A DNA stretch of 19,119 nt from a bacterium. Lineage in GTDB: Bacteria > UBP15 > UBA6099 > JAJRTR01. The stretch is from NCBI GenBank assembly GCA_024278215.1, contig JAJRTR010000043.1, forward strand, positions 1 through 19,119, written 5' to 3'. The translations under genes and the position numbers were made by a program. Shown here in pieces: positions 258 to 14,016 of the stretch (its first letter is position 1; every line of letters begins with the position of its first letter). Under the pieces are notes generated by a model. The model was given only the letters and a program-made list of their open reading frames with translations. It did not search any database and was not told the DNA's origin.

Positions 258-773
258 ATGGAAGAACGAACAGGACTGGTGACATTGCAGGGGAATCCGG
301 TGACACTCGTCGGGCCGGAGATAAAGATCGGCGACGCGGCCCCGGACGCGACTCTTACGGCCAACGATATGACACCCGTACGCATATCGTCATTCAAGGG
401 CAGGGTGACGATCATATCGGTCGTGCCTTCGCTGGACACCCCGGTTTGCGACACACAGACGCGCAGATTCAATCAGGAGGCCGCGGCGCTTGGTGATGAT
501 GTTGTGATTCTGACAATAAGTGTGGACCTTCCGTTCGCGCAGGCGAGATGGTGCGGCGCGGCGGGAGTTGATGCTGTGCAGACCCTCTCGGACCATCGCG
601 ACGTGTCTTTCGGCAAGGCGTATGGCGTACTGATAAAAGACCTGCGGCTGCTTGCGCGCGCGGTGTTTGTAGTGGACAGAGACGGTATTATACAACATGT
701 GCAGCTTATCAGTGAAATAGCTGAAGAGCCGGACTATGCAGCGGTCCTCGATGCGGCGGAAAAATTGATATGA
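258..773 (+). CDS. tpx: Thiol peroxidase (Tpx-type atypical 2-Cys peroxiredoxin)
   Basis: A 171-residue protein with the Tpx architecture. Tpx enzymes reduce hydrogen peroxide and alkyl hydroperoxides in the cytoplasm, usually with electrons from thioredoxin. The peroxidatic site is VPSLDTPVCDTQTRRF with Cys64, and the resolving cysteine is Cys99 in ARWCGAAG. The spacing matches the Cys61/Cys95 pair of the E. coli enzyme. Thr61 and Arg of the TxxC active site region are present, and the length is normal for the family (about 165-170). The start at 258 follows a good GGAGG at 248-252. It begins a plus-strand run of redox-defence genes, with a rubredoxin-like gene 36 bases downstream. The identification is firm; the reductant in this organism is not visible here. 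Confidence 0.96.
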   Translation: MEERTGLVTLQGNPVTLVGPEIKIGDAAPDATLTANDMTPVRISSFKGRVTIISVVPSLDTPVCDTQTRRFNQEAAALGDDVVILTISVDLPFAQARWCGAAGVDAVQTLSDHRDVSFGKAYGVLIKDLRLLARAVFVVDRDGIIQHVQLISEIAEEPDYAAVLDAAEKLI

Positions 774-809: not shown

Positions 810-971
810 ATGAGCGACGATCAGAAATGGAAATGTTCGAATTGTGGATATACGGTACAGCAGAAAATACCACCGGACAAATGCCCTTCATGTAGTAAGA
901 GTTGCGGCTTCATAGATATATCATGCTACATTCCGGACTGTAGCGACAGCAACAAAGACGACAGGTTATAG
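810..971 (+). CDS. Small rubredoxin-like Cys-rich protein (53 aa)
   Basis: The translated product starts MSDDQKWKCSNCGYTV and has the rubredoxin-type iron knuckles C9-x2-C12 and C25-x2-C28, with PPDKCPSC between them. Such sites bind one Fe(Cys)4 and pass single electrons. The region matches the C-terminal rubredoxin domain of the rubrerythrin at 4304 (KWKCxxCGY...PPDxCPxC). Unlike plain rubredoxin it has three further cysteines (C32, C39, C44) in a tail with the pattern SCGFIDISCYIPDC, and then a short charged end. The length matches rubredoxins (about 50-55). Its place between tpx and a flavodoxin suggests an electron carrier for peroxide- or oxygen-reducing partners such as rubrerythrin or the flavodiiron protein. 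That role is inference. Confidence 0.85.
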   Translation: MSDDQKWKCSNCGYTVQQKIPPDKCPSCSKSCGFIDISCYIPDCSDSNKDDRL

Positions 972-1060
972 GGATAACCGGACAGTGGATCTGTGGCGAA
1001 AACGGCTTGATAATATGTGCTGATAAAAACAGAATCCTGAACAGCGGTGAAAAAAATAGT

Positions 1061-1067
1061 GAGGAGG
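1061..1067 (+). promoter_or_regulatory. Ribosome binding site fixing the flavodoxin start
   Basis: GAGGAGG nine bases before the ATG at 1077. It favours that start over an in-frame upstream ATG at 1047, which has no comparable site. Confidence 0.75.
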
Positions 1068-1076
1068 CATGGCAAT

Positions 1077-1514
1077 ATGGCCAGAGCACTGGTTTTGTAC
1101 ACGACAAAAACAGGAAATACAAAGAAAATAGCGGATTTTGTAGCGGAAGGATTGAGGTTCTCGGGTGCGACGGCGGAAGTGAAAACTATTGATCAGATAG
1201 CAGACCCGGCGCAGCTCGAGGAGTATGACGCTCTGATACTGGGCTCTCCGACTTACGGTGCGCAGATGATGGGTGAGATGAAGGAGTTTCTGGAGGTGAT
1301 GTCGTCGTGCAAATTGAGCGGCAAGCCGGGTGGAGCGTTCGGAGCGTTCGGCTGGAGCGGCGAGGCGCCCGATGAGATTTACGACTACCTGAAGAAAGAA
1401 TGCGGCATGGATATGGCCGGTGACGCCCTGCGTCTCAAGGCGGCGGACATTGAAGGCGGCATGAAGATGGCGCAGGGCTATGGCCGGGAAATAGGCGACA
1501 AAATCGCAGGATAG
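1077..1514 (+). CDS. Short flavodoxin resembling the FprA flavodoxin domain
   Basis: A 145-residue single-domain flavodoxin. The FMN phosphate loop is TTKTGNTKK (residues 9-17), followed by the flavodoxin motifs LGSPTYGAQM (55-64) and FGWSGEAPDEI (91-101). The GSPT and GxFGWSGEA motifs and the overall spacing closely match the C-terminal flavodoxin half of the flavodiiron protein at 7988 (FGSPTLNNG and SYGWSGEAV). It is therefore a free-standing relative of that domain, and likely a soluble one- or two-electron FMN carrier. The start at 1077 is chosen for its Shine-Dalgarno site. It lies 105 bases after the rubredoxin-like gene and 15 bases before ferritin, so it is probably co-transcribed with both. 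Its donor and acceptor are not known from sequence. Confidence 0.9.
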   Translation: MARALVLYTTKTGNTKKIADFVAEGLRFSGATAEVKTIDQIADPAQLEEYDALILGSPTYGAQMMGEMKEFLEVMSSCKLSGKPGGAFGAFGWSGEAPDEIYDYLKKECGMDMAGDALRLKAADIEGGMKMAQGYGREIGDKIAG

Positions 1515-1529
1515 AATTGGAGAAAAATC

Positions 1530-2054
1530 ATGATTAAAGAAAAAATTCAGGAAGAACTCAACCGTCAGATAAACGAGGAGTTATATTCATATTACCTTTA
1601 TTTATCGATGTCGGCGTATTTCGAAGACATTGACCTGCCGGGTTTCGCGAAGTGGATGAACGCGCAGGCGCAGGAGGAAATGGCTCACGCGATGAAGTTC
1701 TTTCACTTCATTATCGAGCGCAGCGGTAAGGTAACGCTGCTGCCGATCAAAGGTCCTCAGACGGACTGGGAAAGTCCTCGCGATGCTTTCGAGGCGGCCT
1801 ACAAACATGAGTGTTATATCTCCGACTGCATCAACAAGCTCGTCGATCTGGCGCTGGCGGAAAGCGACCATGCGACAAATGCATTCCTGCAGTGGTTCGT
1901 CAGCGAACAGGTCGAGGAAGAAGCCACAGCCGACGCGGTTGTCAAGAAACTCCGACTTGTCGAGGGACACCCGAATGGAATGTACATGATCGACAAGGAA
2001 CTGGGCGCACGTATATTTACACCTGCCTCGGCTGCCGGTGAAGAAGGTGCGTAA
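1530..2054 (+). CDS. ftnA: Bacterial non-heme ferritin
   Basis: A 174-residue four-helix ferritin. These proteins form 24-mer cages that oxidise Fe(II) at a di-iron ferroxidase centre and store ferric mineral, which removes the iron that drives Fenton chemistry. The expected ligands fall at the same numbers as in E. coli FtnA: Glu17, Glu50, His53, Glu94, Gln127 and Glu130 (motifs NEELYS, QEEMAHA and EQVEEE). No Met ligand of the bacterioferritin heme type is apparent, so this is FtnA rather than Bfr. GGAG at 1519-1522 precedes the start by about seven bases. The flavodoxin 15 bases upstream might supply electrons for iron mobilisation, but this is speculative. The C-terminus ends in a short Ala/Gly/Glu tail. 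Confidence 0.96.
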   Translation: MIKEKIQEELNRQINEELYSYYLYLSMSAYFEDIDLPGFAKWMNAQAQEEMAHAMKFFHFIIERSGKVTLLPIKGPQTDWESPRDAFEAAYKHECYISDCINKLVDLALAESDHATNAFLQWFVSEQVEEEATADAVVKKLRLVEGHPNGMYMIDKELGARIFTPASAAGEEGA

Positions 2055-2055
2055 A

Positions 2056-2080
2056 CCGGATTACTTCGCGGGAAATCCGG
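2056..2080 (+). terminator. Hairpin after ferritin (possible weak terminator)
   Basis: CCGGATT (2056-2062) pairs perfectly with AATCCGG (2074-2080) across an 11-base loop, directly after the ferritin stop. No T-run follows, so it is not a classic intrinsic terminator. It could end or protect the tpx-to-ferritin transcript. The rest of the 2055-2272 gap is relatively AT-rich and probably holds the cooS promoter, but I could not place convincing -35/-10 boxes. Confidence 0.35.
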
Positions 2081-2272
2081 GAAAGCTTATTAACACTCAT
2101 CCTGCTGTGTTGCGACGGCGTGTACGGAAACGATCACATATATGAAGTTCCATCAACGCACATTCGCCGCGACTTGTATTGCAGTCATTTTATGATATTT
2201 CACCCGAATTGAAGTGAGGTATCTGGTATGGTAACCACAAGTACTTGCAGCTAATGGCAAAAGGAGGCCAAA

Positions 2273-4264
2273 ATGGCAAAAGAAAAAAAGATTGTCGATG
2301 TGAACGACCTGACGATATGCGAAGCGACCGCACAAATGATAACAAAATCAAGGGAAGACGGTGTCGAGACGGCCTTCGACAGGGCGCAGAACATGAAACC
2401 GTGTCCGATAGGCGCGGACTCGGCCTGTTGCAAGCACTGTTTCATGGGGCCATGCAGGCTTTCGGCTAAAGACCCTTATGGAAAAGTGGGTGTATGCGGA
2501 GCGACTATCGATACGATTATGGCCCGCAATTTTGCCCGCATGGTGGCGGCCGGAACAGCAGCGCATACCGACCACGGTATGCACATGCTCGATGTTTTCA
2601 GGGGTGTCGTCAACGGGGAAATTTCCGATTACGGCATAAAAGATGAAAAGAAGCTTGTCGCCGTCGCCGCCTCTATCGGCATCGAAACCGACGGTCGCGA
2701 GATCATGGATATCGCTAAAGACCTTTATGTGGAACTAGAACGGACTTATACACAGGTTGAGGGCGAGATACCTTTCGCAAAACGAGTACCCGTGAAGACG
2801 CTCGAGATGTGGCGTAAGAATGATATCGTGCCGCGCGGCGCAATGCGTGAGATAATGGACATCATGCACCGCTCGACTATGGGAGTCGATCAGGATTACG
2901 GGAATATCATGAAACAATGCAGCAGAACAGCGCTCTCCGACGGATGGGGCGGTTCTATGGTGGCGACGGAACTTTCAGATATCATATTCGGAACACCGAA
3001 GCCGGTTGTCGCCGATGTGAATATGGGCTGCCTTGACGAGAAACAGGTCAACATCATCATACACGGACATGAGCCGAACCTTTTTGAATCAATTTTCGCG
3101 TCGGTAAGTGACGCGGCACTTGTAGAAAAGGCGAAAGCGCTTGGGGCGGAGGGCATAAATCTTGTGGGCATGTGTTGCTCGGGGGCGGAGATGCTCATAC
3201 GTCACGGAGTGCCCCACGCAGGTAACTTCATGTCGACGGAAACTGTTCTTGTGACGGGTGCCGTGGATGCTATGGCCGTCGATGTGCAGTGCATCAAACA
3301 GGGGCTCGCAAAAGTGGCCGACTGCTACGACACAAGGCTTTTCACCACAAACCCAAAGGGACGCATCGAGGGGGTCGAGCATATAGAATTCGACGACCAC
3401 AATCCGAAGGAATGTACCGACAGGATAGTGGAATTGGCGATCGAGCGTTACGGCAGAAGGAGTAAACCTGTCGAGATCCCCAATATTGTAAACAGAGGTG
3501 TTCACGGTTTTTCACATGAGTATATCAATTACATGCTCGGCGGTACATTCAGAGCTGCATACACGCCGCTTAACGACAACATAATAAACGGCAGGATACG
3601 TGGCGTGGCGGGTGTCGTGGGATGCACAACTGCAAGGTCGAAACAGGACTTTTCGCATGTCGAACTTGTCAAAGAGCTTATTAAAAACGATGTGCTTGTC
3701 CTTCAGACAGGCTGCTCGCAAATAGCGCTTGCGAAGGCCGAATTATGCACGCCCGAGGCGGCTCGTTTCGCTGGAGCGGGCCTGGCTGAAGTGTGCGAGA
3801 CTGTGGGTATGCCTCCAGTGCTTGGCATGGGCTCCTGTGTGGACAACAGCAGGATACTGATTGCCGCGTCGGAAATGGTGCGCGAAGGCGGCCTCGGAGA
3901 AAGCATTGCCGACCTGCCCGCGGCGGGCTGCGCACCCGAGTGGATGAGCGAAAAAGCAATCGCCATCGGTCAATATTTCGTCGCGTCTGGGGTTTACACG
4001 GTGTTCGGCGGTACTTTCCCGATTGTCGAGGATACGAAGTTTTTCAAACTTCTTTTCGGCGGACTCGAAGAGCAGGGGCTCGGCAAATGGGGTTTCGCGC
4101 CTGATCCCATAGAAATGGCCCGGCTTATGATCGAACACATAGATAAAAAGAGAAAAGCGCTCGGCATCGACAAACAGCGCGAGCGTATCCTCGTAGGCAT
4201 GGAAGAAAGGCGCGACATGAGTAATAACCCTGTCACGAAAGGATGTAAAGGCCCGATGCATTAG
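2273..4264 (+). CDS. cooS: Anaerobic carbon monoxide dehydrogenase catalytic subunit (CooS)
   Basis: A 663-residue Ni-Fe-S CO dehydrogenase that interconverts CO and CO2 with electrons. All metal ligands expected by comparison with Carboxydothermus CODH-II are present. The inter-subunit D-cluster is Cys44 and Cys52, and the B-cluster is Cys53, Cys56, Cys61 and Cys75. The C-cluster is His266 (HGHEP), Cys302 (GMCCSG), Cys340 (DVQC), Cys451 (VGCTT), Cys481 (TGCSQ) and Cys522 (GSCVDNS), with the catalytic Lys561 in EKAIAIG. AAGGAGG at 2261-2267 sets the start. The protein runs about 30 residues past the usual C-terminus, ending in a basic tail with TKGCKGPMH. No acetyl-CoA synthase, CooF ferredoxin, CooC maturation ATPase or hydrogenase gene is in the window. 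A rubrerythrin follows after 39 bases and ferritin precedes it, which favours a stress-linked, monofunctional enzyme over carbon fixation. The subunit identity is firm; the role is inference. Confidence 0.97.
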   Translation: MAKEKKIVDVNDLTICEATAQMITKSREDGVETAFDRAQNMKPCPIGADSACCKHCFMGPCRLSAKDPYGKVGVCGATIDTIMARNFARMVAAGTAAHTDHGMHMLDVFRGVVNGEISDYGIKDEKKLVAVAASIGIETDGREIMDIAKDLYVELERTYTQVEGEIPFAKRVPVKTLEMWRKNDIVPRGAMREIMDIMHRSTMGVDQDYGNIMKQCSRTALSDGWGGSMVATELSDIIFGTPKPVVADVNMGCLDEKQVNIIIHGHEPNLFESIFASVSDAALVEKAKALGAEGINLVGMCCSGAEMLIRHGVPHAGNFMSTETVLVTGAVDAMAVDVQCIKQGLAKVADCYDTRLFTTNPKGRIEGVEHIEFDDHNPKECTDRIVELAIERYGRRSKPVEIPNIVNRGVHGFSHEYINYMLGGTFRAAYTPLNDNIINGRIRGVAGVVGCTTARSKQDFSHVELVKELIKNDVLVLQTGCSQIALAKAELCTPEAARFAGAGLAEVCETVGMPPVLGMGSCVDNSRILIAASEMVREGGLGESIADLPAAGCAPEWMSEKAIAIGQYFVASGVYTVFGGTFPIVEDTKFFKLLFGGLEEQGLGKWGFAPDPIEMARLMIEHIDKKRKALGIDKQRERILVGMEERRDMSNNPVTKGCKGPMH

Positions 4265-4303
4265 AAATCAGGCTGAATACTTTATATAAGGAGAAGATGT
4301 AAA

Positions 4304-4795
4304 ATGAGTAAGACAAAAGAGAATCTGATGGCGGCTTTCCAGGGTGAATCAATGGCAAACAGAAAGTATCTCGCTTTCGCGCAGAAGGCGGACGAGGAAG
4401 GCTATCCGGAGATAGCGAAGCTGTTCAGGACACACGCCGAGCATGAGACCCAGCATGCGCTGGCACATGCGCGGAGGCTCGGACTGATCAAGTCGACTGC
4501 GGAAAATCTCGAGACCGCGATAGCAGGCGAGACGGACGAATCAAAAGAAATGTATCCTCAATTCGCTAAAGAAGCTCGTGAGGAAGGCGACGAGGAAACA
4601 GCGAAGTATTTCGAGGCGCTCGCGGAGGCCGAAGACAATCATGCTCATGAGTATTATGTTGCCCTCAAGAAACTTGAAGGCAAGCAGCTCAAGTGGAAAT
4701 GCGCTGTCTGCGGCTACATACACACAGGCGAGAATCCGCCCGACCGCTGCCCGCGTTGCGGCGCAGGCAAGGAAGCTTTCCATATCGTCGAATAA
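4304..4795 (+). CDS. rbr: Rubrerythrin (di-iron peroxidase with C-terminal rubredoxin domain)
   Basis: A 163-residue classic rubrerythrin. Rubrerythrins reduce hydrogen peroxide to water in anaerobes, usually with electrons from rubredoxin and an NAD(P)H oxidoreductase. The N-terminal four-helix domain carries the di-iron ligands Glu15 (GESMANRKY), Glu48-x2-His51 (EHETQHA), Glu79 and Glu82 (ESKEMYP), and Glu110-x2-His113 (EAEDNHAHE). The C-terminal domain has the Fe(Cys)4 site Cys133-x2-Cys136 and Cys149-x2-Cys152. AAGGAG at 4288-4293 precedes the ATG. The 39-base gap after cooS has no visible terminator, so the two genes are probably in one transcript. CO-derived electrons could reach this enzyme through the rubredoxin-like or flavodoxin carriers upstream. 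Confidence 0.97.
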
Positions 4796-5071: not shown

Positions 5072-6619
5072 ATGATAGAAGCCATAAACCCGGCTACGCT
5101 GGAAGTTAATGCTGAGATTGAAGAAACTCCGGTCGAAGACGTCGGCACTGTGTTTGAAACTGCGCGCGGTGCGCAGCGCGAGTGGGCCGCCCTCGGCACG
5201 GCCGCTCGCGCAAAACACCTTATCCGCGTCAAAGAACACATACTGGACCGGATAGATGACATCGCGGAAACTATCACCATAGACAACGGCAAGACGCTGC
5301 TCGAATCCGTAAACTCGGAGATATATCCCGTTCTGGACATGCTGACTTTCTGCGCGAGGGAGGCACCCGGATACCTGAAAAAAGAATCTCTTAAAAATCC
5401 GATCTTCCCCATCGCGAGAATCGAGAGCAGCAACATCTTCGAGCCCCTGGGCGTGATAGGAATTATCTCGCCTTGGAACTTTCCGTTCGCTATTCCCATG
5501 ACGCAGATCGCAATGGCGCTGATTACGGGAAACGCGGTGGTTCTGAAACCCGCCGAGCTTACCGCGCTGACCGGTGAACTCATCGGCGGCATTTTCAAGG
5601 ACAGCGGACTGCACGACGGCGTTGTAACCGTAGTGCAGGGCGAGGGAGCGGTGATAGGCGGGGCGATGATGGACGCACGCCCCGACCGCGTCGTTTTCAC
5701 GGGCAGTGTGCCGGTCGGGAAGCATCTCATGAAAAGAGCGGCGGAAACCCTTATCCCGATCACGCTCGAACTGGGCGGAAAAGACCCTTTCATCGTTCTG
5801 AAAGATGCCGATGTCGAGCGTGCTTCGAGCGCGGCCGTATGGGGCGCTTTCATAAATGCCGGGCAGGTGTGCGCGTCCGTCGAGCGCGTGTATGTACACC
5901 GGAGTATCGCCGACGAATTCATCGCGAAAGTTGTGGGGAAGACAAAAAAGATTCGTGTGGGCAACGGCCTTGATCATAAAGTTGACATGGGGCCGATGAT
6001 CTCCATGAAACGAATCGAGGCGGTCGAGCAGCATGTGACGGATGCAGTGGCAAAAGGAGCGGAAGTCGCCGCGGGCGGCAAACGTATCGGTAGTATGCCC
6101 GGCTACTTCTTCGAGCCCACCGTCCTGACCGGAGTGGACCACACGATGGATTGCATGAGCGAGGAGACATTCGGTCCCACTCTGCCGATCATGGTTTTTT
6201 CGGATGTCGACGAGGCGGTCGCTCTGGCGAACGACAGCAGGTACGGCCTCACCGTCGCCGTATGGTCCAGGGATACGGCGAAGGCGGAGAAGGTCTGCCG
6301 CCGCATCGAGACAGGAACGGTCGTTGTGAATAACTGTCTCCTGACCTACGGTTTCTCGCAGTGCCCATGGGGTGGCGTTAAGGACAGCGGCATAGGACGC
6401 ACTCATTCCGTTCACGGACTCTATGAGTTCACAAACATAAAAAATATCACAATCAGCAAAAGCCTGCTCAGGGAAGACCTGTGGTGGCATCCGTACAGCG
6501 AAGCGAAATACAGGGGTATGAAAGCCGTGATTAAAACGCTTTTCTGCGAAGGCGTCGTCTGCAAGGGCGAGGGAATCGTTGATATACTGAAATCTTTCAA
6601 GTTGCCGGGCAGAAAATAA
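5072..6619 (+). CDS. NAD(P)-dependent aldehyde dehydrogenase
   Basis: A 515-residue member of the aldehyde dehydrogenase superfamily, which oxidises aldehydes to carboxylic acids with NAD(P)+. The catalytic thiol is Cys267 (NAGQVCASVERVYV), the general base is Glu233 (LELGGKDPF), the oxyanion Asn is Asn136 (SPWNFPF), and the cofactor-binding Lys159 lies in VVLKPAE; the FTGS motif is at 209-212. Beyond the usual core there is a C-terminal tail of about 45 residues starting near LWWHPYS. AGGAG at 5059-5063 sets the start. The gene stands alone, between a structured intergenic region and a convergent membrane protein gene. The substrate cannot be read from sequence. Removal of toxic or lipid-derived aldehydes would fit the stress theme but is only a guess. 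Confidence 0.93.
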   Translation: MIEAINPATLEVNAEIEETPVEDVGTVFETARGAQREWAALGTAARAKHLIRVKEHILDRIDDIAETITIDNGKTLLESVNSEIYPVLDMLTFCAREAPGYLKKESLKNPIFPIARIESSNIFEPLGVIGIISPWNFPFAIPMTQIAMALITGNAVVLKPAELTALTGELIGGIFKDSGLHDGVVTVVQGEGAVIGGAMMDARPDRVVFTGSVPVGKHLMKRAAETLIPITLELGGKDPFIVLKDADVERASSAAVWGAFINAGQVCASVERVYVHRSIADEFIAKVVGKTKKIRVGNGLDHKVDMGPMISMKRIEAVEQHVTDAVAKGAEVAAGGKRIGSMPGYFFEPTVLTGVDHTMDCMSEETFGPTLPIMVFSDVDEAVALANDSRYGLTVAVWSRDTAKAEKVCRRIETGTVVVNNCLLTYGFSQCPWGGVKDSGIGRTHSVHGLYEFTNIKNITISKSLLREDLWWHPYSEAKYRGMKAVIKTLFCEGVVCKGEGIVDILKSFKLPGRK

Positions 6620-6660: not shown

Positions 6661-7902
6661 TCAAGGGGCGTAACTATTGCGGATTGCGGTCATTAATTTG
6701 AGTATTATTATTGCGGAAATAATCAGTAACAGGCCCGCGACACCCCTGATGTAGCCGCTTTTGAAGTATATGCCGATGCACATAATGATGATTCCAAGGT
6801 GCATGAGAACATAGTGGATATTGCTTATCGCGCTATGCTCGAAACGGCCCGAAGTCCACATCAGATATATGAGAGCGCCGGTGATACCCATGCCCGCCCA
6901 GCCGAGCAGCGCGAGATGAATATGGCCCTGGATAAGAAAATAAAACATTGCCGATTTATTGTCGAATCCGTACCCGAGCGCGAGTCCGGCGAGCCCGGCG
7001 AGTGACAGATAAAATATCGCGCTTGCAAAATATCGCCATATATAATCAGGAAGCGCCTCCAACGTCTTTTTCCTGTCCTTTATCACTCCGGCGGCGAACA
7101 CTACGATGCTCATGACGAGCACGAATGAAAACAGGAATTGAAGTGTCGCGAAAATATGGTGAAATTTTGTGCTGTCGAAAAGAATCGCGCCAAAGAGCGC
7201 GAAAACGCCTGATACCAGTATCGCGTACTGGGCCTCCCACAGCGCTTTGCTCCTGATGCGGCCTGCCTCGTACTCTTTGAAATAGGGTATGTAAAGCGTT
7301 CCCATAATTGTTAGTGAGATCGGGAACGAAAACGCGAGATAATTGGTTTTTAGTGATATAGCCTCTGCAAACGGCAGTATCGGTTTGATCGTGTTGATAG
7401 TGACATGAATCAATTGGCCGTAGGCGAGAAAACACATAAACAGCGAGGTGGCGAGAAAGCGAAGAGGAATATTTGAAAGCAGTTTTGTCGCCGTCACGCC
7501 GGCATAAATGTTGTACGCGAATAGCGCGAGGCATATCAGTATGACGAAACCGAAGATAATGCCGATGTAGTAGAAAACGCAGTTGCCGGTGAGACCTTCG
7601 AGAAGATACGAAAGCCATATCGACCAGAGTGAAATGTTGAAACTCCTGAACAGCAGAGAATCAGCGTGGGCGGGGATTCCGGGGCTCTTGAGAAGCAGGT
7701 GCACAAACGCTTTCTGCTGCCCGAGTATCATCAGTGTGCCGAAACCCATGAAAGCGATGTATGCGTGGAAGATGAACGGACCTTCGGCCTGGAGTCCGCT
7801 CGAGGCACGGTCGCTTATGGAAATGCCGGCAAGCGCGGCGGTCATAAAATATATGATCGCAACTCTATGGTATGCGGAAATTTCGATCTCCGTTTTTTTC
7901 AA
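6661..7902 (-). CDS. Multi-pass membrane protein, heme-copper oxidase subunit I/NnrS-like
   Basis: A 413-residue, very hydrophobic protein with roughly 11-12 predicted membrane helices. Helices contain histidines in contexts seen in heme-copper oxidase subunit I and NnrS relatives: FHAYIAFMGFG (His46), GHIHLALLGWAGMG (His327, His329) and NIHYVLMHLG (His363, His368). The H-x-H-x5-GW pattern in particular resembles a heme-ligating helix. I do not see the Tyr-His and His-His copper-site motifs of a catalytic oxidase, so it is probably a non-catalytic or heme-only relative. The start is TTG at 7902, eight bases after AAGAGG. It is divergent from the flavodiiron gene 85 bases away, which suggests shared control and an O2- or NO-related role. 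Its exact function is unknown. Confidence 0.65.
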   Translation of the reverse strand: MKKTEIEISAYHRVAIIYFMTAALAGISISDRASSGLQAEGPFIFHAYIAFMGFGTLMILGQQKAFVHLLLKSPGIPAHADSLLFRSFNISLWSIWLSYLLEGLTGNCVFYYIGIIFGFVILICLALFAYNIYAGVTATKLLSNIPLRFLATSLFMCFLAYGQLIHVTINTIKPILPFAEAISLKTNYLAFSFPISLTIMGTLYIPYFKEYEAGRIRSKALWEAQYAILVSGVFALFGAILFDSTKFHHIFATLQFLFSFVLVMSIVVFAAGVIKDRKKTLEALPDYIWRYFASAIFYLSLAGLAGLALGYGFDNKSAMFYFLIQGHIHLALLGWAGMGITGALIYLMWTSGRFEHSAISNIHYVLMHLGIIIMCIGIYFKSGYIRGVAGLLLIISAIIILKLMTAIRNSYAP

Positions 7903-7987
7903 TACTTTATCCTCTTCGACATTTGTTGTATTTTATAACGTGCAGGATAAATTTACGATTTTATTTTAAAGAATGGAGAAAATGAAC
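7903..7987. promoter_or_regulatory. Divergent intergenic region between membrane protein and flavodiiron genes
   Basis: An AT-rich 85-base gap that must hold both start regions. AAGAGG (complement of 7911-7916) serves the minus-strand TTG start. GGAG at 7975-7978 serves the plus-strand ATG at 7988. A weak plus-strand promoter candidate is TTGTTG (7923-7928), 17 bases, then GATAAA (7946-7951). No clear palindromic operator was found. Confidence 0.4.
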
Positions 7988-9181
7988 ATGAATGCTTTAG
8001 AAGTTACAAACGGAATCTACTGGGTCGGTGCAATCGACTGGAATATTCGCGATTTCCACGGCTATTCCACCGAAAAGGGAACCACTTACAATGCTTACCT
8101 TGCACTAGATGAAAAAACAGTTCTTTTCGACACTGTCAGGCATGGCTTCTACAGGGACCTGCTTCATAATATCAAGCGAGTGACAAATCCTGAAAAGATT
8201 GATTACATTGTTGTCAATCATGTCGAACTGGACCACACGGGTTCTCTGCCTAAAGTGATCGAACTCGTAAAACCGGAGAAGATTTTCTGCTCGAAAATGG
8301 GGAAGCGGAACCTGCTCGACCACTTTCACAGGGAAGACTGGCCGCTGGAGGTCGTCAAGAGCGGCGACGAGATCAGCATAGGCAAGAAGACAATCACCTT
8401 TCTCGAAACCAAAATGCTCCACTGGCCCGACAGCATGTTTTCCTATATTAAAGAAGACAGGTTCCTTATATCGAGCGACGCGTTCGGACAGCACTGGGCA
8501 ACTTCCGAGCGTTTCGCCGATGAGGTGGACGACCCGGAACTGTTCCGGCACGCCGCGAAGTATTACGCTAATATCCTCAACCACTTTTCGGACAGGGTGC
8601 AGAAGCTGATCGAGACCGTAACGGAGATGGGGCTCGAATTCGACATGATCGCTCCCGACCACGGCCTTATATGGCGCAGGAATCCGGCGCGCGTCATCGA
8701 AGCCTACGACAAATGGAGCAAGCAGGAGCCGGGCAAGAAGGCGCTCATAATCTACGACACGATGTGGCACAGCACGGAACACATGGCAAAAGCAGTGTGC
8801 AGCGGCCTGATGCAGGAGGGCATCCCGGTGAATATTCTGAATCTCCATCACACGCACCGCTCGGACATCATGACGGAAGTGCTCGACGCGAAAGCGCTTA
8901 TCTTCGGGTCGCCCACTCTCAACAACGGCATGTTGCCGTCTATGGCTGACATCCTGACATATATCGGCGGCCTTAGACCCGCGAACAGGATAGGGGCCGC
9001 GTTCGGTTCCTATGGCTGGAGCGGCGAGGCGGTGAAAAAAATAAACGCGATGCTCGAAGAAATGAAGCTCGAAGTCGTATCGCCGGGCGTAAGAGCGAAA
9101 TATGTGCCGGGACATGACGAACTGCGTCCCTGCGTGGAACTCGGCAGGCAGATAGGCGCGGCGATAAATGCGGCTGTGTAG
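7988..9181 (+). CDS. fprA: Flavodiiron protein (FprA-type O2/NO reductase)
   Basis: A 397-residue A-type flavodiiron protein: a metallo-beta-lactamase-like di-iron domain followed by a flavodoxin domain. Such proteins reduce O2 to water or NO to N2O in the cytoplasm of anaerobes. With the start at 7988, the iron ligands are His78-x-Glu80-x-Asp82-His83 (HVELDHTGS), His145 (MLHWPDS), Asp164 (SSDAFGQH) and His225 (PDHGLIW), all intact. The FMN loop is YDTMWHSTEHMA from about residue 256, and SYGWSGEA lies near 340-347. There is no C-terminal rubredoxin domain as in NorV, so it needs an external donor such as the rubredoxin-like protein at 810. In-frame ATGs at 7973 and 7982 are less likely starts because GGAG at 7975-7978 is well spaced only for 7988. 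Confidence 0.93.
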   Translation: MNALEVTNGIYWVGAIDWNIRDFHGYSTEKGTTYNAYLALDEKTVLFDTVRHGFYRDLLHNIKRVTNPEKIDYIVVNHVELDHTGSLPKVIELVKPEKIFCSKMGKRNLLDHFHREDWPLEVVKSGDEISIGKKTITFLETKMLHWPDSMFSYIKEDRFLISSDAFGQHWATSERFADEVDDPELFRHAAKYYANILNHFSDRVQKLIETVTEMGLEFDMIAPDHGLIWRRNPARVIEAYDKWSKQEPGKKALIIYDTMWHSTEHMAKAVCSGLMQEGIPVNILNLHHTHRSDIMTEVLDAKALIFGSPTLNNGMLPSMADILTYIGGLRPANRIGAAFGSYGWSGEAVKKINAMLEEMKLEVVSPGVRAKYVPGHDELRPCVELGRQIGAAINAAV

Positions 9182-10191: not shown

Positions 10192-11535
10192 ATGGATGTT
10201 GTCTTATTGTCACGGTTGCAGTTCGCGGCTGCAACAGCGTTCCACTTTATTTTTGTCCCGCTCACACTGGGGTTGTCGCTGATTATCGCGTTGATGGAAA
10301 CAAAATATGTCCGCACCGGTGATGTGACGTACCAGCGAATGGCGAAGTTCTGGGGAAAAATGTTCCTGATCAATTTCGCTATAGGGATCGTCACGGGGAT
10401 CACACTCGAATTTCAGTTTGGCACGAACTGGTCGCGCTATTCGCAATATGTCGGCGATGTCTTCGGATCGTTACTGGCCATCGAGGCGACCGCGGCGTTT
10501 TTTCTCGAATCGACATTCATCGCAGTATGGGCCTTCGGCTGGAAAAAACTTTCTGCGAAGATGCACGCGCTCACTATATGGCTCGTCACCATCGCGTCGA
10601 GTGTATCGTCGATATGGATAATTATAGCAAATTCATGGATGCAGCATCCGGTAGGATACACGATCCGCAACGGGCGCGCCGAAATGACGGATTTTATGGC
10701 GATAGTCACCCAGAAACTCGCCTGGATGACCATAGCGCACACGCTTTTTGGAGCTTTCATTTTCGCCGGTTTCTTTGTGATGGGCATCAGCGCTTACCAT
10801 CTGCTGCGAAAACAACATCTGGACGTTTTTCGCAAATCGTTCCGGTTCGGGCTTGTGTTCACGACAATATTTGCGTTCGCAATTGTTGTGCAGGGGCACT
10901 TCCATGGAGAGAACGTTTATCACCAGCAGCCTGCTAAACTCGCCGCTATGGAATCATTGTGGGAAACTACCGAAAGTGCGCCGATGTATCTGCTGACGGT
11001 CCCGGATGAAAAGAATGAACGTAACAAAGTAGACCTGTTGCCGATCCCCGGACTCATGAGTCTGCTCGCGACCGGTTCCGCCGATGCCGAACTCAAGGGG
11101 CTGAAGGATTTCCCGAAAGATGAGCGGCCTCCCGTCGCCCTTGTGTTCTACGCATTCCGCCTGATGGTCGCCTGCGGTATGTTTTTCCTGCTGCTTGTCG
11201 CGGTCGGCTGGCTGCTCGGCGACAAAGTCGAGACAAAACCGCTGTATCTCAAGCTGCTGATACTGGCCATACCTTTGCCTAATATAGCGATACAGGCGGG
11301 CTGGATCGTCAAGGAAGTCGGTCGCCAGCCGTGGATAGTATACGGTGTAATGAAAACATCCGAAGCCGTCTCTCCGGTGCCCGCCGTAAATGTCGCAATA
11401 TCGCTTGCGGCTTTTATCCTTGTGTATTCACTGCTCGGAGCGGCGGCGATATTTCTGATATACAAAGCGGCGGTGAACGGACCAGTGCCGCTGCCCGCAG
11501 ACGCGAAAACGGCAGACTCGAAAGGAGGGCGGTAA
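10192..11535 (+). CDS. cydA: Cytochrome bd oxidase subunit I
   Basis: A 447-residue membrane protein carrying all three hemes of cytochrome bd, a quinol oxidase that reduces O2 to water with high affinity. Heme ligands are His18 (ATAFHFIF, heme d/b595 side), His183 (IAHTLFG, heme b558) and Met325 (FRLMVACG, heme b558). The proton-channel acidic residues Glu98 and Glu106 (AIEATAAFFLES) are present. The quinol-loop residues Lys249 and Glu254 match Lys252/Glu257 of E. coli, and the GRQPWIVYG motif is at 378-386. The Q-loop is the short type, shorter than in E. coli. cydB follows after three bases. In an anaerobe this enzyme usually serves O2 scavenging and microaerobic survival and can also resist NO. 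Confidence 0.97.
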   Translation: MDVVLLSRLQFAAATAFHFIFVPLTLGLSLIIALMETKYVRTGDVTYQRMAKFWGKMFLINFAIGIVTGITLEFQFGTNWSRYSQYVGDVFGSLLAIEATAAFFLESTFIAVWAFGWKKLSAKMHALTIWLVTIASSVSSIWIIIANSWMQHPVGYTIRNGRAEMTDFMAIVTQKLAWMTIAHTLFGAFIFAGFFVMGISAYHLLRKQHLDVFRKSFRFGLVFTTIFAFAIVVQGHFHGENVYHQQPAKLAAMESLWETTESAPMYLLTVPDEKNERNKVDLLPIPGLMSLLATGSADAELKGLKDFPKDERPPVALVFYAFRLMVACGMFFLLLVAVGWLLGDKVETKPLYLKLLILAIPLPNIAIQAGWIVKEVGRQPWIVYGVMKTSEAVSPVPAVNVAISLAAFILVYSLLGAAAIFLIYKAAVNGPVPLPADAKTADSKGGR

Positions 11536-11538
11536 GCT

Positions 11539-12558
11539 ATGGAAATGATATGGTTTATAATCTGGGGTATACTCTGGTCTGTATACTTTGTCCTCGACGG
11601 CTTCGACCTCGGCATCGGCGCGTTGATCCCGTTTCTGGGCAAAAGTGAAGAAGACCGCCGCGTGATGGTGAACGCCGTTGGGCCTTTCTGGGACGGCAAC
11701 GAAGTCTGGCTCATCACAGCGGGCGGTGTGACGTTCGCCGCGTTCCCTACGGCATACGCGGTAATGTTCAGCACACTCTATTCACCGCTACTGCTGCTCC
11801 TGTTCGCCCTGATTTTCAGGGGCGTCAGTCTCGAATTCAGGCACCATGTCGACAGTCCCGGCTGGCGCGCGCTCTGGGACAGGTGTTTCTTCCTCGGCAG
11901 CGCGTTGCCCGCAATACTGCTCGGCGTTGCGTTCGCCAACATATTTAAGGGTATCCCTTTCGACAGCGAATATGTTTTTCACGGCACGATCCTCACGCTG
12001 CTTAATCCATACGGACTGCTCGGCGGTGCGCTGTTCCTGCTTCTGTTCGTAGTCCACGGCAGTCTCTGGCTCGCGACAAAATCAGACGGCGACCTGCAAA
12101 AACGCGCGGGCCGCGCGGCATCGGGCGTGTGGCTGGTTCTCCTTATTATCGCGGTCGTCTTCCTGGTCGCCACATGGTTCAAGACCGGTCTTTACGACAA
12201 TTATCTGGATCACCCCGCGCTGTTCATCATACCGCTGCTTGCAGTAGCCGGTCTCGTTCTGACACGCATTTACATAGCTGCCGCCGCATGGCTCAAAGCC
12301 TGGTTCGCGTCGGCGCTCACAATATTCGCCTGCGCCATGTTCGGCATAATCGGACTCTATCCGAACATATTCCCGTCGAGCCTGGACCCCGCGATCAGCC
12401 TTACTGTCCTGAATGCTTCATCCAGCCCGCTCACACTTAAAATCATGCTCGGCGTGGTCCTGATATTCGTTCCCATAGTTATCGCATATCAGACCTGGGT
12501 GTATTTCCTTTTCAAAGGTGTTCCCGATCATGATGAATCCGGGCACGGCGCGTATTGA
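11539..12558 (+). CDS. cydB: Cytochrome bd oxidase subunit II
   Basis: A 339-residue membrane protein with about eight or nine helices, the structural partner of CydA. The family hallmarks are the N-terminal VLDGFDLGIG (18-27), VGPFWDGNEVWLITAGG (47-63) and the RGVSLEFRHH region near 95-103. Its ribosome site AAAGGAGGG overlaps the end of cydA (11521-11529), so the two subunits are translationally coupled. There is no recognisable cydX-like small subunit or cydCD transporter after it: the next 76 bases hold only a hairpin, and then a convergent gene begins. Confidence 0.96.
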   Translation: MEMIWFIIWGILWSVYFVLDGFDLGIGALIPFLGKSEEDRRVMVNAVGPFWDGNEVWLITAGGVTFAAFPTAYAVMFSTLYSPLLLLLFALIFRGVSLEFRHHVDSPGWRALWDRCFFLGSALPAILLGVAFANIFKGIPFDSEYVFHGTILTLLNPYGLLGGALFLLLFVVHGSLWLATKSDGDLQKRAGRAASGVWLVLLIIAVVFLVATWFKTGLYDNYLDHPALFIIPLLAVAGLVLTRIYIAAAAWLKAWFASALTIFACAMFGIIGLYPNIFPSSLDPAISLTVLNASSSPLTLKIMLGVVLIFVPIVIAYQTWVYFLFKGVPDHDESGHGAY

Positions 12559-12634: not shown

Positions 12635-13924
12635 TCACATGCCGCTTTTCTTTGTGATGAACTCGACGAAGTTGGACTTCAGTTCCTTATTGAGAAGTAT
12701 CTTTTTCGAGAGCGGCATTCTGAGTACCGCACCGAATATATTCTTAAGAAACTCTCCCGTGTTTCCGTCGACATCGTCGAAAAGGAAATGTTGCAGCTTA
12801 CCGCGTTCGATGGCCATTGTGAGTATCCTGTCGAGCGTCGATTGCGGTGTCAGAACTTTGCGGTTCTTCCGCTTTTTCATAGTCAGCGCATCGAACTTGC
12901 AGGCGCTTTCGCACACGCCGCAACCGAGGCAGATCGACTTGTCAACTTCAGCCCACTTTATTTTCTTCCCGTTCTTGCCCGGTTTTTCTTTTATTGTTAT
13001 TGCATTGATCGGGCAGCGTCTCGCGCACTTGCCGCAGCCTTTGCAGGCGTCTGTGTCGACGGAAGCGATGAAACCGGTGGTATGGACGGCGTTTGATATG
13101 CCGTGATTATTTATAGCGCCGAGCATACCGCAGCAGCAGCCACAGCAATTGCAGATGAATGTCGGTTCCCTGACGATATTGTCGGCGATATGGACGAGGC
13201 CGTGTTCGCGGGCGGCGGCGAGCAGGTCGAGCGCTTCTTCTTTTGATATTTCGCGGCCGAGATTTTTGCTTGTCAGCCACTCCGCGCCCTGGCCGAGAGA
13301 GAGGCATATCTCTTCGGGCTTGTCGCAGCCTTTGCCGGCGTGCTGCGCCTTGTGGAGACAGTAGCAGAGTGATACAGCGCGCTTTTTCGCTTCGGAAACG
13401 ATCATCGACGCGCGTTCCCAGTCGAGCACTTCCGTGATGTCGTCATCCGGGAGCGCGGTTTCGTGGACGAGTGCCCGGCCGACCTGTGTTTGCTGTTGAA
13501 ACACTTCATGCGCGAATATATCATCGTTCTCGAATATATTGTGCATTGCTTCGGCGAGCTCTTTCTGCGGCAGGTCTTCGCGGCGGCGCATGAGAGAGAA
13601 CTCGAAGAAACCGACAACTGTCGGTGGCAGCATGTAAAATGTTTTTCCGCTTCTCTGGTGATGAAAATCCATCATGCTGCCCTTGAACGACATTTCAGTC
13701 AGGATTTTTTCAACTTTATCTTTCTCGATTCCAGTTCTACGCGCGATCTTGCCGGCGGTCGCGGGCGCCATCGGCATCCGTGACGCTATGCGCGCTTCTT
13801 CTTCTGTGAAAAGAAGCCTGAGTACTTCATACATATCTTTCGTTTCAGGCGCGCCGACCGGATACCTATCCAGCCTTTCGCGCAGTTCGATGTATTCCTT
13901 CTTTATATTGTTCAGGTGAGCCAT
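12635..13924 (-). CDS. Winged-helix-like, Cys-rich 2x[4Fe-4S] ferredoxin-type protein
   Basis: A 429-residue multi-domain protein. The N-terminal part (about residues 35-105) contains FTEEEARIASRM and a helix-turn-helix-like segment, TAGKIARRTGIEKDKVEKIL, followed by a KGxMxD wing-like strand. The middle has CYCLHKAQHAGKGC (Cys187, 189, 200), ICLSLG (Cys207) and the dense block CNCCGCCCG (258-266). The C-terminal part has two classic 4Fe-4S motifs: Cys294-x2-297-x2-300-x3-304 and Cys332-x2-335-x2-338-x3-342. I recognise this as a recurring family in anaerobes but know no assigned reaction. It is probably a cytoplasmic electron carrier or redox sensor. GGAGG (complement of 13930-13934), five bases before the ATG at 13924, decides the start over an in-frame TTG at 13966. 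Confidence 0.82.
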   Translation of the reverse strand: MAHLNNIKKEYIELRERLDRYPVGAPETKDMYEVLRLLFTEEEARIASRMPMAPATAGKIARRTGIEKDKVEKILTEMSFKGSMMDFHHQRSGKTFYMLPPTVVGFFEFSLMRRREDLPQKELAEAMHNIFENDDIFAHEVFQQQTQVGRALVHETALPDDDITEVLDWERASMIVSEAKKRAVSLCYCLHKAQHAGKGCDKPEEICLSLGQGAEWLTSKNLGREISKEEALDLLAAAREHGLVHIADNIVREPTFICNCCGCCCGMLGAINNHGISNAVHTTGFIASVDTDACKGCGKCARRCPINAITIKEKPGKNGKKIKWAEVDKSICLGCGVCESACKFDALTMKKRKNRKVLTPQSTLDRILTMAIERGKLQHFLFDDVDGNTGEFLKNIFGAVLRMPLSKKILLNKELKSNFVEFITKKSGM

Positions 13925-14016
13925 TACCGCCTCCGTATCGAATCGCCGCCTGCCGACTTCGATCAAGATATTATTACGAATTCTACATTATCCAGCTTTT
14001 TGCTTACAACTGATAC

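Follow-up and report, generated by a model that had tools for sequence, protein, structure and literature searches.

Many genomes contain a second, stand-alone carbon monoxide dehydrogenase (CODH) of no known purpose. The question of what such an enzyme might do is raised by a contig of 19,119 bp from a bacterium of the GTDB lineage UBP15 (GenBank JAJRTR010000043.1; hereafter, the window), on which cooS, the gene for the catalytic subunit of a nickel-dependent CODH (Ni-CODH), lies among genes for peroxide, oxygen and iron defence. We find that stand-alone CooS proteins of this type are repeatedly tied to defence against O2 and peroxide, a connection that is supported by gene neighbourhoods and by predicted binding sites (boxes) for the peroxide regulator PerR. 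There is about an even chance that the window CooS is an oxidative-stress CODH, feeding electrons to enzymes that reduce O2 and peroxide.

Stand-alone cooS genes and oxygen-defence genes

The window CooS scores above the curated cutoff of the Ni-CODH family TIGR01702 and, as a preliminary description of this DNA had held, retains every cluster ligand. Alignment to the solved structure 6t7j places the D-cluster ligands at C44 and C52 (numbering of the window protein), those of the B-cluster at C53, C56, C61 and C75, and those of the C-cluster at H264, C302, C340, C451, C481 and C522, with the acid-base residues kept in the H98 region and at K561. The protein is a predicted Ni-CODH catalytic subunit, and probably oxidizes CO.

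Among solved structures, the best match is 6t7j itself (562 bits), which we take to be the CODH of Thermococcus AM4, followed by other clade E chains; CODH-IV (6elq, 500 bits) and CODH-II (about 414 to 422 bits) score below these. The Thermococcus AM4 CODH group has been assigned to clade E, and CODH-IV to clade F (PMC13056359). Since the ranking puts clade E chains ahead, we rejected kinship of the window CooS with CODH-IV. The type II D-cluster (C-x7-CC), the complete C-cluster, the catalytic His and Lys, and the absence of the extra N-terminal Cys motif correspond to the signature of group E-1 (Inoue 2019). Membership in clade E is likely, and falls short of proof because the F-1 signature is identical, such that the signature alone cannot part clade E from clade F (PMC6344411 Table 2).

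We surveyed the 80 best genome-contig matches to the window CooS, which are 68 to 79% identical to it and come almost entirely from Desulfobacterota. Their cooS genes are found in three contexts: CODH/ACS operons, where ACS is acetyl-CoA synthase; stand-alone positions with other neighbours (ferredoxin-thioredoxin reductase, glutaredoxin and citrate synthase genes); and clusters of oxygen-defence genes. In Desulfoferrobacter suflitae there are two cooS genes of the window type (L063 and L066), one in a CODH/ACS operon and one alone, which might reflect a change of role.

Clusters of the third kind combine cooS with genes for rubrerythrin (rbr), a small rubredoxin-like protein (mini-rubredoxin, mrub), flavodoxin (fld), ferritin (ftn), desulfoferrodoxin (dfx), thiol peroxidase (tpx), the flavodiiron protein FprA and cytochrome bd oxidase (cydAB). 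Their gene orders are fld-rbr-dfx-ftn-mrub-fld-cooS-fprA-rrf2-cydA (L048), rbr-(124 aa)-mrub-cooS-fprA-cydAB (L062), rbr-fur-rbr-(124 aa)-ftn-mrub-fld-cooS (L034) and rbr-fld-perR-tpx-dfx-mrub-cooS-fprA (L036), and the layouts of L024 and L025 resemble them. Pfam and NCBIfam models identify desulfoferrodoxin in L036, L048, L121 and L122 and PerR-like regulators in L036, L121 and L122, whereas the 124-residue open reading frames (ORFs) of L034 and L062 can be labelled dfx by size and position only. Downstream of cooS, fprA occurs in six conserved loci (L024, L025, L036, L048, L062 and L122), and the window FprA is 63 to 65% identical to those of L024 and L025. The window mini-rubredoxin, flavodoxin and ferritin are together 50 to 57% identical to their counterparts at defence loci, with 50 to 54% for flavodoxin at conserved CooS loci and 55 to 57% for ferritin in L034 and L048. 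Two further genes were seen at such loci: a flavin reductase-like gene (PF01613) between cooS and fprA in L024 (11995-12501), and a TANGO2-family gene (PF05742) immediately 3' of cooS in the PerR-type locus L121 (11110-12027).

The 53-residue mini-rubredoxin of the window has a rubredoxin-like CxxC...CxxC arrangement as well as conserved C32, C39 and C44 (CYIPxC motif), and shares 22 invariant columns with five homologues encoded beside CooS in Desulfobacterota (L034, L036, L048, L062 and L121). Members of this family are about 50 to 70 residues long and have three added invariant cysteines in a CxFxDxxCYIPxC motif; the known domain covers only their first half.

In a tree of 126 CooS proteins, the window CooS pairs with that of an order-mate (L023, support 99), and the two stand next to a large clade made up chiefly of stand-alone CooS from Desulfobacterota. 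The fullest defence clusters fall within one subclade of 15 rows (SH-aLRT 95), several members of which are cut by contig ends. With further scattered cases outside this subclade, the oxygen-defence context requires a minimum of 11 changes on the tree. The preliminary description had called for a survey of the co-occurrence of CooS, rubrerythrin, ferritin and the 53-residue protein: the neighbourhood recurs in the 15-row clade and elsewhere, but it is not conserved in the nearest relative from the window's own order (G002), an outcome that the preliminary description had itself named as speaking against its idea and that was thus borne out in part.

We also examined 395 Desulfobacterota genomes, sampled evenly, counting rbr, mrub, fprA, ftn or tpx as defence genes if they were on the same strand as cooS and within 5 kb. 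Such genes accompany 6 of the 43 stand-alone window-type cooS genes versus none of the 50 ACS-linked ones (Fisher p 0.008, relatedness ignored). Five mini-rubredoxin genes in this sample are at most 10 kb from a cooS, for which a rough estimate of the number expected by chance is below one. One of the five is in genome G225 (L235 4195-10936, minus strand), in the order mrub-fur-cooS-Prx-Prx-fld. Its CooS, just 54 to 55% identical to that of the window, represents another CODH lineage placed among defence genes.

A palindrome resembling the published Desulfovibrio PerR consensus was first seen ahead of several cooS genes. We built a matrix from seven published Desulfovibrio boxes (PMC545781), excluding the cooS sites, and applied it to positions -250 to +60 of cooS. 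Matches of at least 15 bits are present at 27 of 78 stand-alone window-type cooS genes versus 0 of 106 other cooS genes, and in 0.06% of shuffled regions; many of the 27 have no adjoining defence gene. An exact search with the IUPAC consensus through eight whole Desulfobacterota genomes gave 13 distinct sites. Seven of these are 4 to 133 bp before a cooS ORF, in seven of the eight genomes, four of which contain no other match, and two precede Fur/PerR genes by 14 and 17 bp, in two genomes. Because the eight genomes were picked for a box at cooS, this result reflects specificity within a genome, not frequency. The predicted boxes suggest that cooS is under PerR control in part of the Desulfobacterota. 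Since such a site precedes cooS in cultured sulfate reducers, for example Desulfosarcina alkanivorans, the idea of CO as an antioxidant becomes experimentally testable. In D. alkanivorans PL12 the predicted box is centred on no defence gene but placed at about -142 relative to the start of the cooS ORF, and Desulfofustis glycolicus DSM 9705 has a weaker site.

The window and its genome

The window is the whole of one contig in a 4.55-Mb genome of 207 contigs, and begins only 257 bp upstream of tpx. HemA, encoded on the same contig, is 54 to 58% identical to its counterparts in five of the order's other six genomes; identity is 39 to 40% for two Desulfobacterota genomes and likewise for G002, a pattern that fits the contig belonging to this genome.

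Family scans recovered tpx, the rubredoxin-like gene, flavodoxin, ferritin, cooS and rubrerythrin where the preliminary description had placed them (Table 1). The peroxide and iron defence setting that it recognized is real, although it left out fprA and cydAB, whose position downstream on the same strand makes the oxygen-defence neighbourhood larger than was described. Gaps between the genes, in bp, are tpx-36-mrub-105-fld-15-ftn-218-cooS-39-rbr-276-aldh, and each gene is preceded by a Shine-Dalgarno-like sequence. Tight pairing of cooS is limited to rbr.

Table 1. Genes and gap of the window considered in the text
Feature	Position	Strand	Basis
tpx, thiol peroxidase	258-773	+	NF001808, 214 bits (cutoff 123)
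mrub, 53-aa mini-rubredoxin	810-971	+	RUBY_RBDX, 36.9 bits (cutoff 26.5)
fld, stand-alone short flavodoxin	1077-1514	+	PF12724/PF00258
ftn, non-haem ferritin	1530-2054	+	PF00210, 155 bits
218-bp gap ahead of cooS	2055-2272	+	No PerR box by published matrix
cooS, stand-alone Ni-CODH catalytic subunit	2273-4264	+	TIGR01702, 590.4 bits (cutoff 478); ligands by 6t7j alignment
rbr, rubrerythrin	4304-4795	+	PF02915 and RUBY_RBDX
aldh, aldehyde dehydrogenase	5072-6619	+	PF00171
fprA, flavodiiron (O2/NO-reducing) protein	7973-9181	+	PF19583 and PF00258
cydA, cytochrome bd oxidase subunit I	10192-11535	+	PF01654, 585 bits
cydB, cytochrome bd oxidase subunit II	11539-12558	+	PF02322, 360 bits

Family scans of the window found no ACS, CooC, CooF, FNOR or hydrogenase genes, in agreement with the preliminary description. 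A second CooS (54%) is encoded on another contig of the genome, with ACS, CdhD and CooC-like genes. The ACS, CdhDE and CooC genes expected of a CODH/ACS (Wood-Ljungdahl) enzyme are thus with this other copy and not by the window cooS, which makes the window enzyme a second, stand-alone CODH. Scans of the window for tRNAs and Rfam families gave no matches, and hits to sigma-70 promoters and terminators did not exceed those in shuffled sequences. Two other genes of the window are on the minus strand. One, between aldh and fprA (6664-7902), encodes a 413-residue membrane protein with a sub-threshold match to COX1 (haem-copper oxidase subunit I). The other (12635-13966) encodes a 443-residue protein that matches no family over its full length and carries two 4Fe-4S ferredoxin motifs in the C-terminal third.

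Possible roles of the window CooS

If the window CooS acts in oxidative stress, it would oxidize trace CO to CO2, and its surface D-cluster would hand electrons singly to a small co-encoded carrier, which could be the flavodoxin, the mini-rubredoxin or both. Oxidation of CO gives electrons at about -0.5 V, enough for flavodoxin, rubredoxin and everything downstream. The carrier may then feed rubrerythrin, reducing H2O2 to water, and FprA, reducing O2 to water; FprA is as good a candidate acceptor as rubrerythrin, which ends the chain suggested in the preliminary description (CooS to flavodoxin or rubredoxin-like protein to rubrerythrin). In the Desulfobacterota versions, desulfoferrodoxin might also be fed, converting superoxide to peroxide. 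Ferritin would sequester iron, and cytochrome bd would clear O2 at the membrane. Four elements of this scheme are inferences: that CO is the reductant used in the cell, which protein carries the electrons, that the genes are transcribed together, and that stress induces them in the window's own organism.

We consider it an evenly balanced proposition that the stand-alone Ni-CODH subfamily serves, at least over some of its distribution, in oxidative-stress defence instead of acetyl-CoA synthesis or CO-driven growth. A more specific version is held tentatively, with some doubt: that this subfamily, which is spread through Desulfobacterota and one or more other lineages, is an antioxidant enzyme under PerR control that, during O2 stress, passes CO electrons through flavodoxin or the mini-rubredoxin with its seven cysteines to rubrerythrin, FprA and superoxide reductase.

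Several observations weigh against such a role. The D-cluster is of type II, whereas that of the O2-resistant Desulfovibrio CODH is of type III, and a source of CO is not evident. The upstream region of the window cooS has no PerR box (best score -0.3 with the Desulfovibrio matrix), the genome's three exact matches to the consensus are all away from the cooS locus, and its single Fur-family gene is on another contig. The contrast between PerR boxes and ACS linkage is a property of a clade and does not represent independent events; there are too few informative pairs for a phylogenetically independent comparison. No defence gene is within 5 kb of 37 of the 43 stand-alone window-type cooS genes in the even sample, and the mini-rubredoxin family is present in 123 of the 395 genomes, mostly far from cooS. 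Finally, the cooS of G002, whose product is 78% identical to the window CooS, is alone on a 5.3-kb contig, and the defence operon of that genome (tpx-dfx-mrub-dsrE-fld-rubredoxin) is on a different contig without cooS.

One rival explanation, which we regard as unlikely, is that the window CooS is a back-up isozyme, a stress-induced spare for the CODH subunit of CODH/ACS once oxygen has damaged the first copy, and that its neighbours are co-regulated with it without being electron partners. In Escherichia coli, fumC takes over from fumAB in a comparable manner. PerR boxes would account for such co-regulation without an electron link, closely related CooS proteins of the same subfamily are ACS partners in Syntrophobacteraceae, and most host genomes of stand-alone cooS carry a separate CODH, which is ACS-linked in the window's genome. 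However, the nearest recurrent neighbours at stand-alone loci are carriers and reductases of O2 and peroxide, and never parts of ACS, and the D-cluster is not of the O2-resistant type.

It is similarly improbable that, in the window's organism, CooS is a bystander, cooS-rbr having come to lie beside a tpx-mrub-fld operon that was already there, whether accidentally or for a cause that has nothing to do with CO. The missing PerR box and the 218-bp gap between ftn and cooS are consistent with this explanation, as is G002, in which the defence operon (L238 548-8613, contig C41, minus strand) is followed by a two-subunit 2-oxoacid:ferredoxin oxidoreductase (PORab) and aldh. The aldh that closes this locus is 66% identical to the one that comes after rbr in the window, and PORab fills the place that ftn-cooS-rbr has there. 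Within the window's order, the joining of cooS to the defence operon is therefore not fixed. We rejected conservation of synteny throughout the order, because the two are apart in G002 and the other five genomes (G001 and G003 to G006) have CooS matches of only 35 to 53%. We likewise rejected the idea that POR and CooS are interchangeable low-potential electron sources in one slot, because POR is beside aldh in G005 as well (where the contig ends at POR) and may simply belong with aldh. Against a bystander, Desulfobacterota and a second CODH lineage have either evolved or retained this combination as well, and cooS and rbr are separated by just 39 bp that include a ribosome-binding site.

Least probable is that CooS removes CO, an inhibitor of many metalloenzymes, to protect haem and iron enzymes such as cytochrome bd and hydrogenases, with electron delivery to rubrerythrin and FprA incidental: cydAB genes are in or near the cluster in L048, L062 and the window, but conserved adjoining electron carriers would be unneeded, no CO-sensing regulator was recognized nearby, and the predicted sites ahead of cooS fit a peroxide regulator and not a CO regulator.

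Comparison with known systems

The general idea of an oxidative-stress role is already known from CODH-IV, clade C CODHs and a hydrogenase chimera, but the PerR link and the gene cluster of clade E-like stand-alone CODHs are apparently unreported. In the literature searched, supplementary tables and RegPrecise aside, we found no report of either. Recent surveys of CODH gene context give Wood-Ljungdahl pathway (WLP), ECH or FNOR modules as likely partners, and keyword searches of the main texts of three of them did not find rubrerythrin or the other defence terms tried as CODH neighbours (PMC13056359, PMC6344411, PMC13240472). In the literature on stress transcriptomes of sulfate reducers, no mention of CODH was found in PMC11451228.

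For CODH-IV, the idea of CO as an antioxidant came from one operon, CooF-CooSIV-FNOR-rubrerythrin (CHY0735-0738) of Carboxydothermus hydrogenoformans (PMC4703632, PMC6085454), for which CO-fed peroxide reduction was proposed by Wu 2005, according to passages in the same two papers. The likeness to CODH-IV drawn in the preliminary description holds in that both loci have a CooS without ACS or hydrogenase adjoining rubrerythrin (39 bp downstream in the window), with the same proposed role. It does not extend to the enzyme, whose sequence is closer to clade E CODHs than to those of clade F, nor to CooF and FNOR, in place of which the window has flavodoxin and mini-rubredoxin nearby. This difference in carriers had also been pointed out, and both carriers indeed recur as cooS neighbours. 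Moreover, the conserved surroundings of window-type CooS take in fprA, desulfoferrodoxin, ferritin and cydAB, which sets them apart from the CODH-IV operon. The connection to CODH-IV thus appears to be an analogy of context only.

PerR regulons of deltaproteobacteria include perR-rbr-rdl and perR-rbr-roo, which share the box and several genes with the loci described here, although the Desulfovibrio cooS was assigned to CooA and not placed in the PerR regulon in the relevant part of that analysis (PMC545781). Clostridial clade C CODH clusters are also linked to oxygen stress, their expression being reported as O2-induced (Whitham 2015 and Hillmann 2009, as cited in PMC6344411). These enzymes are from another clade, with Tyr/Gln instead of His/Lys as acid-base residues, and another phylum, and the carriers of the C. 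ljungdahlii enzyme are CooF and FNOR.

The chimera of [FeFe] hydrogenase and rubrerythrin CperHydR has been demonstrated biochemically to perform H2-fed reduction of H2O2 (PMC11926857). As proposed for the window, electrons from the oxidation of a low-potential gas pass by way of rubredoxin and di-iron centres to H2O2. The donor of CperHydR is H2 and its parts are fused in one protein, while the window system would use CO and is encoded by separate genes; if the proposal is correct, some anaerobes protect themselves from oxygen with electrons from CO.

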